47,512 nt of DNA from Methyloceanibacter sp. (GTDB lineage: Bacteria > Pseudomonadota > Alphaproteobacteria > Rhizobiales > Methyloligellaceae). Location: the NCBI GenBank assembly GCA_029287395.1, contig JARFRF010000146.1, positions 1 through 47,512 on the forward strand, given 5' to 3'. The position numbers and the translations under genes were made by a program. Under the pieces are notes generated by a model that was not told the origin of the DNA, searched no databases, and saw only the letters and a program-made list of their open reading frames with translations. Positions 38,316 to 43,737 of the stretch are shown in pieces. Position 1 is the stretch's first letter; every line of letters starts with the position of its first letter.

Positions 38316-39092
38316 TCAGCCCGCGAGGGAATACCGGCCAAGGAGCCGGACTGGCCTCCCGGAATTGGTTGCCAGAGGTTGGCCTGCAGTCTGTTCCTTC
38401 ACGCTGCCTATCAATGAAAGTCCATCTACCCGAATGCCAACGTCGCAGACATCTGAGACCAACGGGCGCAGGGCATTTGAGAGACGCTCACTTTGATCTT
38501 CCTCCAGTGGTCCGGTCAGCGTGAGCGAGAAACGGTATTCGCTCATCACATTTGGCTGACCAAAACTCCTGAGGAGTAGGCGTTGGTGAGGATTTAGATG
38601 GGGCTGCTCGCCCTCGATCGTTTCCGGCCTATCGGCATATGAGTCGAACGCGTTGAAACACTGCAGCGCCAGCCAGTCGAGTTCCGGGCGTGGCTTAGTT
38701 GGCCTCAGGGTCAAAGTACGGTGAGTCCGTGTAAGCTGAAGCGGACCGGTTTCAATCGGCTGTCTGTTGGCCGCAAAGCTCGCAAGGTGCGTTGTGACCT
38801 CGTCGAGCCTCACACCTTTTCGAAGCGGCGCGGGTGCGAAAAACGGCGCGTGTAGTCCGAGATGGCGCCCGGGCATCGGCGCACTGCCGATTGATGCAAC
38901 GCCCGCGAGACCAGACATGGAGAATGCTTGAAGCGTCGCGCCGCCGTTTACCCGACCAAACCAGGAGCGGCCGAATTGCGCGAGAGCGCTGCCGGGGCGT
39001 GAGGTGAAGCAAATGGAAAACAGCGTCCGTTCGCTTGAGAGCGGCTCGGCGCTTGTTCCTTGTTGTTGCTCCCGTTCTGTTGGATTGAGCAT
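38316..39092 (-). CDS. DUF1045 (2H phosphoesterase-like) protein with altered motifs
   Basis: The 258-residue protein matches DUF1045, the family found in phosphonate operons and related to 2H phosphoesterases: RTLFSICFTSRPGSALAQFG at the start, a central LDWLALQCFNAFDSYAD, HLNPHQRLLLRSFGQPNVM and YRFSLTLTG. Family members carry two HxTx motifs. The first is His77-Leu-Gly-Leu (Thr replaced by Gly), and in the second the His is Ser189 (SLTL). It probably lacks phosphodiesterase activity. No phn genes are nearby. The ATG was chosen because GAGGGGG lies six bases upstream. Composition is unremarkable. Confidence 0.75.
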   Translation of the reverse strand: MLNPTEREQQQGTSAEPLSSERTLFSICFTSRPGSALAQFGRSWFGRVNGGATLQAFSMSGLAGVASIGSAPMPGRHLGLHAPFFAPAPLRKGVRLDEVTTHLASFAANRQPIETGPLQLTRTHRTLTLRPTKPRPELDWLALQCFNAFDSYADRPETIEGEQPHLNPHQRLLLRSFGQPNVMSEYRFSLTLTGPLEEDQSERLSNALRPLVSDVCDVGIRVDGLSLIGSVKEQTAGQPLATNSGRPVRLLGRYSLAG

Positions 39093-39245: not shown

Positions 39246-39896
39246 ATGTATAAAGGGATTGAGCGCGTGATCGACCTCTACACATGGATGACACCCAATG
39301 GGCAGAAGGCTTCGATCATGCTTGAGGAGATCGAGTTGCCGTACAGAGTGCACCGCATTGACATCGAGAACGGCGCGCAGTTCGATCCCGAATTCCTCAA
39401 GATCTCTCCGAACAACAAGATCCCAGCTATCGTCGATCACGACAACGGACTGCAGCTAATGGAGTCGGGCGCGATATTGCTCTATCTCGCAGAGAAGTCA
39501 GGCCTGCTCATGCCGAGTGACTTCGAGGGCAAATGGCGGACGCATGAGTGGCTGATGTGGCAGATGGGCGGCGCCGGCCCGTTTCTAGGTCAAGTGCATC
39601 ACTTCGTTTCGTATCACCCAGGCAAAAGCCCGTATGCTGAAGAGCGCTACACGACCGAGGCTCGTCGTCTCTGGGGCGTTCTTGAGAAGCGTTTGGGCGA
39701 TGTCGAGTACGTGGCGGGTGACTATACTGTCGCCGATATAGCGATCTGGCCCTGGATCGCGAGGTATCCAATCCAGCCGGTGGATGTTCAAGACTACCCC
39801 AACATCAAGCGATGGTACCATGCCATCGCCGCACGGCCCGCAGTGCAAAGGGGTTGGGATGTGGTGGGCGCCGGAAGAGAGTTGCCGTTACCGTGA
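39246..39896 (+). CDS. Glutathione S-transferase family protein (YfcG-like)
   Basis: This 216-residue protein has a thioredoxin-fold N-terminal domain (IDLYTWMTPNGQKASIMLEE, NNKIPAIVD, LMESGAILLYLAEK) and an all-helical C-terminal domain with YTVADIAIWPW. The TPNGQK motif with Asn at the active site is that of the Nu-class YfcG/YghU disulfide-bond reductases, which bind two glutathiones. It probably reduces disulfides or conjugates small electrophiles in the cytosol. An internal GTG start seven codons on is possible. The cytochrome gene follows after 34 bases. Confidence 0.9.
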   Translation: MYKGIERVIDLYTWMTPNGQKASIMLEEIELPYRVHRIDIENGAQFDPEFLKISPNNKIPAIVDHDNGLQLMESGAILLYLAEKSGLLMPSDFEGKWRTHEWLMWQMGGAGPFLGQVHHFVSYHPGKSPYAEERYTTEARRLWGVLEKRLGDVEYVAGDYTVADIAIWPWIARYPIQPVDVQDYPNIKRWYHAIAARPAVQRGWDVVGAGRELPLP

Positions 39897-39930
39897 CTCG
39901 ATAAAGCAGGCTTATGGAGGTTGAGTGGCG

Positions 39931-40866
39931 ATGCGAACGCTCCTTGTTCTCGGGTTAGCGTTCGTTGCAGCCGCAGGGGCTGCGTTCTACATCCTCACGA
40001 TACCTGTTGTGTTCACGGCTTCGGACCTGCCGGATCACGCACCGGATGTTTCGAACGGCAAAAACTTATTCATCGCTGGTGGGTGCGCGGAGTGCCATGC
40101 CGTGCCCGTCGGGGCCTGCGACAGTCTCGACATCGAGGACGAGACGCAGCTTGCCGGCGGTCGCTGTCTCAGGACAGATGTGGGCACATTCTATGCGCCG
40201 AATATCTCTCCGGATCCAGAGAGTGGCATCGGAGGCTGGTCCACGCTGGATTTTGTGAACGCGATGAAACGCGGCGTCGCCCCTGGCGGCGTTCATCTGT
40301 ATTTGGTATTTCCGTATACATCGTATCAACGCATGCGCTTTTCGGATCTCATTGACCTCAAGGCCTGTCTCGACACGTTGCCTCCGGTGCGAAGCGCGGT
40401 TCGCGATAACGACCTTCGCTTCCCATACAACATTCGCCGAGGCGTGGGTATCTTTCAGCGACTCTATGTAGACGGGAAAACTTTTGTGCCTGACCCTGAT
40501 ACGACCGAATCCGTCAATCGAGGCGGGTACCTGGTGTTGGGGCCAGGCCATTGCACGGAGTGCCACAGCCCTCGAAATGCCTTGGGGGGCGTTATTGCGC
40601 GCGAAGCGTTTGCTGGCGCGAAGAGTCCGGAGGGCAGGGGCGATGCGCCCAACATCACAACCAGCCCGGAGGGCATAGGGGACTGGAGCCAGCAGGATAT
40701 CGTCTACTTCCTTGAGACAGGGTCGGACCCTGACTTCGATGTGGTTGGGGAGTCCATGATACCAGTCCAGGAAAACATGGCGCGGCTGCCCGCTAGCGAC
40801 CGGGAGGCTATCGCTGCTTTTCTCAAAACGTTGCCTGCGCGACCGGATTCGGCAGAGACGCCTTGA
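39931..40866 (+). CDS. Dihaem cytochrome c, alcohol-dehydrogenase-subunit type
   Basis: The protein of about 311 residues has an N-terminal membrane anchor (about 3-22) and two class I cytochrome c domains with C52-x-x-C55-H56 (GGCAECHA) and C208-x-x-C211-H212 (HCTECHSPR). Segments FYAPNISPDPESGIGGWS and APNITTSPEGIGDWS are the paired distal-ligand regions of the cytochrome subunits of periplasmic alcohol/aldehyde or sorbitol dehydrogenases, which have three haems when complete; this one has two. It would pass electrons from a dehydrogenase to the respiratory chain. GGAGG lies 10 bases upstream; a GTG two codons earlier is also possible. A caspase-like gene follows after 55 bases. Confidence 0.85.
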   Translation: MRTLLVLGLAFVAAAGAAFYILTIPVVFTASDLPDHAPDVSNGKNLFIAGGCAECHAVPVGACDSLDIEDETQLAGGRCLRTDVGTFYAPNISPDPESGIGGWSTLDFVNAMKRGVAPGGVHLYLVFPYTSYQRMRFSDLIDLKACLDTLPPVRSAVRDNDLRFPYNIRRGVGIFQRLYVDGKTFVPDPDTTESVNRGGYLVLGPGHCTECHSPRNALGGVIAREAFAGAKSPEGRGDAPNITTSPEGIGDWSQQDIVYFLETGSDPDFDVVGESMIPVQENMARLPASDREAIAAFLKTLPARPDSAETP

Positions 40867-40921: not shown

Positions 40922-42361
40922 ATGGCGGGGAACTCCAGAAATCAAAGTTTGCTGTTTTTCTGCGTTGCCGCAGCGATTGCAGGCGCCGCGTATGCAGTGC
41001 CCGTCTCGCAAGGCGCTGCGCAGGGTATGGAAGTGATGGGGGATAGCGCAGCTCAAACAGGGGCCGTCATCAGTTCTGAAGCAGATACGACCATCGCTGA
41101 TCTGGCGCCCGATGTAGACACCCCAGTGGTACCCGCCGCGGAAGCCGTGCCGGAAAACCCCGCCACACCCCTGGCCCCACCTGCGTTTCGACAAGAGGGT
41201 CAACTCGACATCGACTGCCTACCGGAAGATCTGCTGGCGAAGCTGCGTGACGCGCACGGGCCGTCCGTGATGGCAAGGGCCTGCCTGCCTGAATGCTTGC
41301 CTCCACCTTACGGACTTAGTCAAAAACAGTTGGACGACCTGTACAGCCGCTACGGCGTTGTTTGGTGCCGTTCTTGTGTGCAGATCTCTGGGCATCTGCC
41401 CTTGAAGGATGTGTGGCGCATCGAGGAGGAGGGGGATATCCAGTTGTGCAGCACGCCGCCAAGCCAAATGCCGCGGCCGGGTAGCTTAAGCGGCAACGTG
41501 GTGAAGTCGTTTAGCCGCATTCGCGAGCTATACCGCGCGATGCCGACGATGCGCGAAGACGAGAATGCGATCGCGGTGGTTATTGGCAACCACACCTATG
41601 AGAATCTGCCGACCGCCCGTACTGCACGGCATGATGCAGGTGCGATGTACTTGTTTCTCACCGAGCATATGGGTTTCCGACAGGACCAAGTCATCGATCT
41701 GCAAAATGCGGGGCGGGCTGATTTGGAGCGCGTGTTTGGACCCGTTCCCGGTTCGGATGGAGAACTGAAGCGCCTTGTACAGGCACGTCCTAACGCGAGG
41801 GTCTTCGTCTATTTTTCGGGTCACGGAGCCGTCAACGCCTCCCAGGACGAAGCCTATTTGCTACCCGTCGAAGCCGAGGCTTATCGCGAGGAGCGGCGGG
41901 GCTATCCGCTTTCAACTCTCTACGCCAACCTCGCAGAGTTAGGCGCAGAGCAGGTCGTCGTTCTGCTGGAGAGCTCGTTTGGCCGAGACCACGGAAACTA
42001 TATCCTCCCGCCGAATATTCCGGAGACAAAGCGCAGCGCGCTTCCTGGGAAGGCCCAGTCGCCTCTAACAGTGTTGGTATCAGCAGATCGCGGTCAGCGT
42101 GCTCTCATAGATCTTGAGTACGACATTGGTCTGTTCACGCGCTATCTGATTGAAGGCCTCTCTGGCAACGCAGATCTTGCGCCCGTCGGCAATGGGGACG
42201 GAGCAGTCGATAGCGCCGAACTCCATGCTTACACGGCTGCAATGGTGCGCCTCGCCGCGCAGAAGACATTTGGGCTGCTGCAAAGTCCAGAACTCTCAAG
42301 TGCTGGAGCGGCCGTGTTGAAGGCCCCGAAGCGTACCTCCGACAGCGCTAAGCAAGGCTAG
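40922..42361 (+). CDS. Exported caspase-like (peptidase C14) protein lacking the catalytic Cys
   Basis: This 479-residue protein has an N-terminal hydrophobic segment (about 9-27, signal peptide or anchor), a region with six Cys (about 95-180), and a caspase-fold domain (about 215-455) with AIAVVIGNHTYENLP, catalytic His301 in FVYFSGHGAV and a C-terminal GLFTRYLIEGLSG and DGAVDSAELHAYT. At the place where active members have the DACFSG motif it reads ESSFGR (Glu350-Ser351-Ser352), so the nucleophilic Cys is Ser. It is probably a pseudo-protease or scaffold. Its spacing (55 bases) to the cytochrome c gene suggests one transcript. Some bacterial C14 proteins have a regulatory role, but none is known for this type. 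Confidence 0.82.
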   Translation: MAGNSRNQSLLFFCVAAAIAGAAYAVPVSQGAAQGMEVMGDSAAQTGAVISSEADTTIADLAPDVDTPVVPAAEAVPENPATPLAPPAFRQEGQLDIDCLPEDLLAKLRDAHGPSVMARACLPECLPPPYGLSQKQLDDLYSRYGVVWCRSCVQISGHLPLKDVWRIEEEGDIQLCSTPPSQMPRPGSLSGNVVKSFSRIRELYRAMPTMREDENAIAVVIGNHTYENLPTARTARHDAGAMYLFLTEHMGFRQDQVIDLQNAGRADLERVFGPVPGSDGELKRLVQARPNARVFVYFSGHGAVNASQDEAYLLPVEAEAYREERRGYPLSTLYANLAELGAEQVVVLLESSFGRDHGNYILPPNIPETKRSALPGKAQSPLTVLVSADRGQRALIDLEYDIGLFTRYLIEGLSGNADLAPVGNGDGAVDSAELHAYTAAMVRLAAQKTFGLLQSPELSSAGAAVLKAPKRTSDSAKQG

Positions 42362-42543: not shown

Positions 42544-43737
42544 ATGAAAGTGTTTTCCTGTGCGGAAGACTATCTTCGGCATCATCGCCCGGAGCGCCCC
42601 GTCTTGGCGTTTAGGCCCCACGCGGCGACCCGCGCGACAAAATGGTTTCTCGATAACTTCCCGGGGCGCGTGCTTTACGCAACCAAGGCCAATGACTCGC
42701 AACCTATTCTCGATGCTGTGGCTGCAGCCGGCATTCGCGGTTTTGACGTCGCCTCGCTCGCCGAGATCGAGCGCGTCAAATCCATCGAGGGCGCAGAGCT
42801 TTATTACATGAACCCAATAAAGTCGCGCGGAGCCATCGCGCGGGCCTATTACGAGTTTGGCGCGCGGTGTTTCGCCTTCGACTCTCACGATGAACTGGGC
42901 AAGATACTCGTGGCGACGGGCGGAGCGGAGGACTTGACGCTCTTCTTGCGGATTGCCTATCCCAACACACACAGTCTTATCCCGCTGGAAGGAAAGTATG
43001 GGGCCAGCGCTGAAGAGGTGCCTTCTCTTCTCTTGAGAGCGCGCCAGCATGCAGCACGCCTTGGCATAGCCTTCCACGTTGGGTCGCAGGCTGTGGTTCC
43101 AGCTGCATTTGGGGAAGCGCTGAACCAAGTTGGGCAACTTATCGTCGCGTCCGGTGTCATGGTGGATGCAGTCAATCTTGGCGGCGGCTTCCCAGCGCGC
43201 TATCCACATTCAGACCCGCCGGGTCTCGATTGTTATATCGGCGAGATTGCTAAGGCCGCGAATGTGTTAGTGGTCAAGCACGCTTGCGAATTGTTGTGCG
43301 AGCCGGGGCGCGCGCTAGTTGCCGAGGCCGAGGCCGTGATTGTGCGCGTTGATGCGCGCCGTGGAAATGCGCTCTATATCAATGATGGCGCCTTTGGCTC
43401 TCTGTTCGATGCCGCTTATTCTGGTTTTCGGTTCCCCGTCCGCTGTGTCACTCCCGACCGCGAAGATGTTGGGGCGGCAGAGACAGCTTTCAGCTGCTAC
43501 GGTCCAACTTGCGACAGCGCCGATTATCTGCCGGGGCCATTCGTTTTGCCTGATGCTGTCGGGGAGGGTGATTACCTAGAGATTGGCCAAGTCGGCGCGT
43601 ATGGCCGCGTGCTCGCAAACCGCTTCAATGGCTTTGGTGACTTTGAAGAGGTAAGGCTGACCGACGAACCCATGCTGTCGATGTTCGCGCAGATGGAGCC
43701 GCGTAAACCGCACGTTTTGCGCTCCGCAAGAATCTGA
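42544..43737 (+). CDS. Type III PLP-dependent ornithine/lysine decarboxylase
   Basis: This 397-residue enzyme decarboxylates ornithine (and/or lysine, diaminopimelate-related substrates) to putrescine or cadaverine. The alanine-racemase-fold barrel has the PLP Lys48 in YATKAND, the FDVASLAEIE segment, FHVGSQ, GGGFPARYP, and the phosphate motif CEPGRALVAEA. The beta domain carries the substrate-side Cys323 in GPTCDSADYL. These are hallmarks of the ODC group IV (type III fold) as in alphaproteobacterial bifunctional lysine/ornithine decarboxylases. The pyridoxal phosphate fold is not the inducible E. coli SpeF type. Gene symbols differ between species, so none is given. Confidence 0.9.
   Translation: MKVFSCAEDYLRHHRPERPVLAFRPHAATRATKWFLDNFPGRVLYATKANDSQPILDAVAAAGIRGFDVASLAEIERVKSIEGAELYYMNPIKSRGAIARAYYEFGARCFAFDSHDELGKILVATGGAEDLTLFLRIAYPNTHSLIPLEGKYGASAEEVPSLLLRARQHAARLGIAFHVGSQAVVPAAFGEALNQVGQLIVASGVMVDAVNLGGGFPARYPHSDPPGLDCYIGEIAKAANVLVVKHACELLCEPGRALVAEAEAVIVRVDARRGNALYINDGAFGSLFDAAYSGFRFPVRCVTPDREDVGAAETAFSCYGPTCDSADYLPGPFVLPDAVGEGDYLEIGQVGAYGRVLANRFNGFGDFEEVRLTDEPMLSMFAQMEPRKPHVLRSARI

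Follow-up and report, generated by a model that had tools for sequence, protein, structure and literature searches.

What is a caspase fold kept for when the nucleophile of the protease is gone? The question is raised by a gene in a stretch of 47,512 nucleotides from Methyloceanibacter sp. (assembly GCA_029287395.1, contig JARFRF010000146.1), referred to here as the window. NCBI places the genus in the Hyphomicrobiales, and the window's genome (G000) is 81% complete. An earlier note, made from the sequence alone, saw in the product a caspase-fold protein that was either a pseudo-protease or a rare serine variant. The case matters in that selection appears to maintain a caspase fold that lacks its nucleophile, and to do so in genomes that showed no second C14 protein, and the role of a non-cutting bacterial caspase fold becomes testable in cultured methylotrophs.

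The pseudo-orthocaspase gene

The open reading frame is intact over its 479 codons (Table 1). Peptidase_C14 (PF00656) matches residues 217–459 of the protein (E 6.9e-10; 39.4 bits, cut-off 21.4), and the His motif FVYFSGHGAV is complete, with His301 as its histidine. The Cys motif reads LLESSFGRDH: the caspase consensus D-x-C-F-S-G has become ESSFGR while SGHG is intact, and Ser352 (codon TCG) occupies the nucleophile position. The intact His motif and the replaced Cys motif are both as the note had described them. The His-Cys dyad is reduced to its histidine, and a p20 domain with one dyad residue substituted makes the protein a pseudo-orthocaspase. The model caspase_w_EACC1 (NF047832), with a threshold of 140 bits, was not reached by the protein at 48.5 bits. 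A hydrophobic stretch at the N-terminus and A-Y-A before V-P, both recognized by eye, agree with the export proposed earlier, and the protein is probably exported. Between positions 39000 and 42700 there are no promoter-like and three terminator-like sites, and shuffled sequences give no fewer.

Table 1. Features of the window gene and its neighbours; positions are those of the window.
Feature	Coordinates	Strand	Basis
Pseudo-orthocaspase gene, 479 aa, ATG start	40922..42361	+	ORF, PF00656, tree and motif survey
Probable export signal, cleavage after A-Y-A	40922..40996	+	By eye, sequence only
Pro/Ala/Glu-rich linker	40997..41206	+	
Six-Cys module (C, C-x3-C, W-C-x2-C, C), Cys invariant	41207..41545	+	25 of 25 A1 rows and 9 further rows
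Caspase (C14) domain without nucleophile; His301, invariant Glu350, Ser352	41570..42301	+	
Dihaem c-type cytochrome (CAECH, CTECH), dehydrogenase cytochrome-subunit type	39925..40866	+	Cytochrom_C E 1.1e-6
GST-like protein, left neighbour of the cluster in the genus	39246..39896	+	NCBIfam below cut-off
PLP-dependent decarboxylase (Orn/DAP/Arg type), right neighbour in the genus	42544..43737	+	PF02784 E 6.9e-33

The Cys-rich region noticed ahead of the caspase domain proved to be a module of six cysteines (99, 121, 125, 149, 152, and 176), unchanged in all 25 rows of the alignment A1 described below. No Pfam family matched it. Predicted in isolation, the module has a pLDDT of 52, too poor for a structure search, and the structure matches of the larger model (residues 96–479, below) are confined to model residues 115–375. 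In a sample of 385 genomes across the class, the module occurs in one, the window's own; the sample can hold few close kin and therefore says little on its spread within the order. Among six long relatives scanned, PG_binding_1 precedes the module in L040 (1.9e-8) and L041 (7.4e-7), falls below the cut-off in L013 (0.0058), and is not listed in L009, L010, and L034. The Pfam scan does not give it in the window protein.

Loss of the nucleophile across relatives

Relatives were sought in 17 genomes of the window's genus and 30 of its bacterial family (E 0.001), and by a profile search in 397 genomes of the order (E 1e-30, scoring no more than four candidates in any one genome). The pseudo-caspase was found in 15 of the 17 and 25 of the 30, the match in G007 being a fragment of 61 residues, and the order-wide search gave matches in 40 of the 397. 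Twenty-five copies form A1, and nine order-wide matches with the module cysteines extend the set to 34 rows. Split or partial copies were left out of A1 (L017, L019, L016/L020/L027, L018, and L021/L026, from G002, G003, G007, and the second copy of G009). L012 (G016), out of frame near the C-terminus, and L007 (G015), whose frame breaks in the linker ahead of the aligned region, were retained, as were L015 and L030 despite a contig-end cut upstream. L062, the G003 copy, was omitted from both trees, and L006 duplicates L001.

The nucleophile position is readable in 14 genomes of the genus, with Ser in eight (G000, G001, G002, G003, G005, G006, G013, and G015), Glu in six (G004, G008, G009, G011, G012, and G016), and Cys in none. 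Over the 34 clade rows it holds S in 17, E in seven, G in six, N in two, D in two, and Cys in none, and the catalytic His is lost in five (L in three, Y in one, A in one). The variability of the nucleophile column exceeds that of 70% of the 275 p20 columns. Judged from these rows, with Cys absent from every one of them and the fold conserved, the protein is probably non-catalytic. An orthologue with Cys at the same position, which would have spoken for a recent mutation, was looked for and none was found; with Ser common to eight of the 14 readable genomes and Cys in none of them, sequencing error and recent mutation are out. Whether the change from Cys to Ser is fixed in a clade has a divided answer: the absence of Cys is (34/34), Ser itself is not (17/34).

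In a tree of 63 rows, whose root was not inferred, the 34 six-Cys rows form one side of a branch with a support of 100/100. Cys versus not-Cys requires two changes on this tree, most simply read from the sequences as one apparent loss for the six-Cys clade and one for the group of L086, L089, L090, and L091. Within the six-Cys clade the nucleophile residue has changed at least ten times, Ser versus not-Ser at least five times, and the His at least five times. Of the 25 rows of matches that lack the module, 21 retain D/E-x-C, and the other four are L086, L089, L090, and L091. The Cys-less clade is spread over five family codes of the order. The group of L086, L089, L090, and L091 is a second set of pseudo-caspases, with SGRAM (Arg) at the His site, Ser or Ala at the Cys site, and open frames reaching 1,574 codons at most.

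Predicted structure and constraint

An AlphaFold model of residues 96–479, made from A1, has a mean pLDDT of 80 and a pTM of 0.84. Its best solved match is MALT1 (3uo8; Z 21.3, rmsd 3.0, 211 residues aligned), and the plant metacaspase 6w8r gives Z 20.7 and rmsd 2.4 with 210 residues aligned. The model aligns with the caspase domain of MALT1 along its whole length, and the predicted domain of the window protein is therefore a whole caspase fold; sequence and fold match together place the protein in Peptidase C14. All 25 A1 rows and all nine further rows have the Glu of Glu350, two residues before the nucleophile, and in metacaspases and MALT1 this position forms one wall of the basic S1 pocket. 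At the other acid of the supposed pocket, the 25 A1 rows have D in 13, N in six, S in four, and E in two, and this variation leaves a kept pocket half supported.

For 14 of the 15 pairs of six core copies, the p20 region has dN of 0.005–0.13 and dN/dS of 0.04–0.11 (NG86), with many dS values above 1 and several near saturation; the fifteenth pair has dN of 0.149 and saturated dS. This constraint, together with the missing Cys in all 34 rows and in every orthologue found, upholds the pseudo-protease of the earlier note. On the other hand, the gene is split over two or three frames in G002 (L017/L019), G003 (L002:6001-7189, M. methanicus R-67174), G015 (L007), and G016 (L012/L022), through either decay or assembly error. 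Taken with the G007 fragment, the split copies indicate that the gene may be dispensable in some lineages.

A gene cluster with cytochromes c and further caspases

In the window, the GST-like protein, the dihaem cytochrome c, the pseudo-caspase, and the decarboxylase follow one another on the plus strand with gaps of 28, 55, and 182 bases. The cytochrome is similar to those that serve as subunits of fructose, glucose, and alcohol dehydrogenases (7w2j_C, E 1.1e-43), and in several genomes a cytochrome c' gene precedes it. As the cytochromes are of dehydrogenase-subunit and c' types, we draw no direct connection to mitochondrial cytochrome c and apoptosis. The best NCBIfam models for the GST-like protein are glutathione-dependent disulfide oxidoreductases, and for the decarboxylase lysA, all below their cut-offs. 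GST and decarboxylase are the borders of the cluster in genus g1. They adjoin directly in G010, so that both cytochrome and pseudo-caspase are missing there. Genus g6 does not keep these borders: the decarboxylase was not matched in six pieces of 19–20 kb (L096–L099, L104, and L106), and in G029 and G027 the GST is about 4 kb upstream, separated by other genes.

Among the 30 family genomes, 24 have both cytochrome and pseudo-caspase, four have neither (G010, G014, G020, and G021), G004 has the caspase only, and G027 the cytochrome only (Fisher p 0.0009, with relatedness ignored); a likely start of the pseudo-caspase (64 residues, 41%) stands at a contig edge in G027. The cytochrome lies upstream on the same contig and strand in 20 of the 24, 13 from genus g1 and seven from genus g6, and the two genes are on separate contigs in the other four. 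Parts of the cluster at contig ends in G018 and G019, and both genes near ends in G008, make linkage probable in these genomes. In G017, the contig runs several kb beyond the cytochrome without a caspase, the pseudo-caspase is on another contig, and the pair seems really split. G004 carries the pseudo-caspase on a continuous stretch without the cytochrome. As G004 and G017 demonstrate, neither gene requires the other as a neighbour. In G000, G001, G002, G003, G005, G006, G011, G013, and G015, the two matches are separated by 59 to 776 bases, too few for another caspase gene, and in other genomes the interval holds further genes on the same strand.

Two further caspases occur in the cluster. 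Caspase A retains the His-Cys dyad in five genomes (G007, G009, G012, G018, and G019; PF00656 E 1.4e-15 in G009), and the contigs of G018 and G019 that carry it end inside the cluster. In caspase B, all nine copies examined (G018 and G022–G029) have Ser in place of the Cys, and their His is replaced by F, Y, or L. In the one copy scanned, Pfam gave DUF4384 without PF00656; its assignment as a caspase comes from PADLOC (E 7.8e-7), with NCBIfam below cut-off, and other copies are 24–27% identical to caspase A over 166–250 residues. In G020 and G021 (genus g5), the interval between GST and decarboxylase holds small proteins that look PG-binding-like by eye, no cytochrome, and a relative of caspase A (L125:2960-4453 and L123:1879-3417, respectively) in which Lys stands for the His and Ser for the Cys, apparently through an independent loss. 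The dyad is accordingly missing from three caspase lineages at this locus, wholly in the six-Cys type and B and in part in A. In addition, an 893-aa protein (L107:7899-10580) has two CxxCH haem motifs and a C-terminal DUF4384, with relatives in G007, G012, G016 (two frames), G018, and G019 and a remnant in G004; a sequence search of the PDB with it gave no match. Canonical caspases adjoin the six-Cys pseudo-caspase in L102:6425-8281, L103:9866-11641, and L105:9346-11253, and their C-terminus, also judged by eye, is presumably formylglycine-enzyme-like. Gene order ties caspase-fold proteins to c-type cytochromes directly in two genera and probably, across contig ends, in two more.

Possible roles of the window protein

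The loss of the nucleophile in every relative found with this architecture, together with the usual adjacency to cytochrome c genes, suggests that the caspase fold is kept for a job other than cutting. The window protein is rather probably an exported, non-catalytic binding or scaffold unit with a partner likely to come from the cluster. The Cys would have been lost at the base of the six-Cys clade, and the position would then have drifted among S, E, G, N, and D. After export, the six cysteines would form disulfides and the protein would act in the periplasm, its partner held by the old substrate groove with the invariant Glu or by another surface. Gene order makes a product of the cluster, such as the dihaem cytochrome, the most likely partner, and the pseudo-caspase would have no protease action. 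Binding of peptides by it is possible, and the linkage with cytochrome c may also reflect shared regulation only.

A different role would be that of a regulator like c-FLIP, which dimerises with an active caspase of the same cell or withholds substrate from it. The His-Cys caspase A of five genomes would be such a caspase in the same cluster, and in L102 and L103, both distant, the adjacent gene encodes a canonical caspase. However, no active caspase turned up in ten genomes of the genus, the window's included. A survey for PF00656 (E 0.01), with other clan CD families outside its scope, found no second C14 gene in G000, G001, G003, G005, G006, G008, G011, G013, and G015, and the two matches in G002 are pieces of one gene; G001 and G006 are single-contig, and G000, G002, G008, and G011 are 80–85% complete. 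The local caspase of G020 and G021, moreover, has Lys and Ser at its dyad. With no other C14 gene found in the window's lineage, regulation of an active C14 caspase is not expected there, and this role is unlikely though not far-fetched.

On a larger scale, an unnamed periplasmic cytochrome c-caspase system of the Hyphomicrobiales can be imagined, in which cytochromes would report the haem, redox, or respiratory state to envelope-bound proteins of the caspase fold. The response would at first have been proteolysis, as by caspase A, and later binding alone, after dyad loss in three lineages, with the cytochrome and pseudo-caspase of the window as the minimal surviving form. We regard this as a doubtful proposal.

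It is more doubtful still that the protein is on its way out, constraint having relaxed after catalysis was lost and the cluster eroding slowly. The gene is split, fragmentary, or undetected in G002, G003, G007, G010, G014, G015, and G016 of the 17 genus genomes, and the caspase neighbours of G007, G009, and G012 are gone in the window's lineage. Even so, the low dN/dS of the p20 region between core copies, the invariance of the six Cys and the Glu throughout A1, and the five family codes covered by the Cys-less clade all speak against it. Least of all does a Ser-nucleophile hydrolase commend itself, a very improbable reading in which the core clade would still hydrolyse peptides or esters with its His-Ser pair: His, Ser, and the surrounding motif are kept in the window's own clade, yet Glu replaces Ser in six of the 14 readable genus genomes, G, N, and D occur more widely across at least ten changes, and the His is lost in five of 34 rows. 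With S/E/G/N/D at the nucleophile position, a Ser protease as a family property is out, and the rare serine variant of the earlier note falls with it.

Comparison with known systems

Pseudo-orthocaspases are described in the available part of Klemencic et al. 2019 (PMC6426788) as p20 caspase folds with a substituted His-Cys dyad, presumed non-catalytic; orthocaspases lack the p10 domain, unlike metacaspases. Of 582 alphaproteobacterial pseudo-orthocaspases counted there, 561 are from Rhizobiales, with Tyr-Ser, Tyr-Ala, Phe-Ser, Gln-Cys, and His-Ala as common dyads, and within the Alphaproteobacteria they are claimed to occur in photosynthetic organisms only. The available part of another paper (PMC3501461) gives the conservation of the dyad in Alphaproteobacteria as 75%.

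In the bacterial family studied here, the link with photosynthesis is not supported. Reaction-centre genes (PF00124) occur in two of 30 family genomes (G000 and G029) and in one of the 17 good-quality ones, whereas the pseudo-caspase occurs in 25 of 30 and 14 of 17. As G000 and G029 both carry the gene, 23 of 25 carriers have no PF00124, and these many genomes are counter-examples to the printed proposal of a photosynthetic role for such proteins in Alphaproteobacteria. The window's own genome does have PF00124, with two matches at G000:C32:8203-9900; a search of the 16 remaining genus genomes gave none. Anti-phage defence was likewise considered and rejected, PADLOC giving for the window protein a generic caspase model only (E 0.0009).

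Among pseudo-caspases of other organisms, c-FLIP-L and TbMC4, as presented in the available part of PMC6426788, have a caspase fold without catalysis like the window protein. In contrast to it, they act with active relatives, while the ten genomes surveyed here show no other C14 gene. SyOC of Synechocystis is closer in this respect, being a pseudo-orthocaspase and the sole orthocaspase of its genome according to the available part of PMC7889975, where its deletion gives a higher tolerance of oxidative stress. It differs in its Tyr-Gly dyad and cyanobacterial host, and the word cytochrome is absent from the main text of that paper. Among open-licence papers, searched by titles and abstract starts, none joining orthocaspases with cytochrome c genes was found.

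With the proteins of PMC6426788, the window clade shares the p20 caspase fold and the substituted dyad. Unlike the Rhizobiales dyads given there, the six-Cys clade usually keeps the His and combines it with S, E, G, N, or D, and the available part of that paper makes no mention of the six-Cys module, the PG-binding part, or the cytochrome cluster. The pseudo-orthocaspase kind is already known; what is new here is the six-Cys module with its gene cluster.
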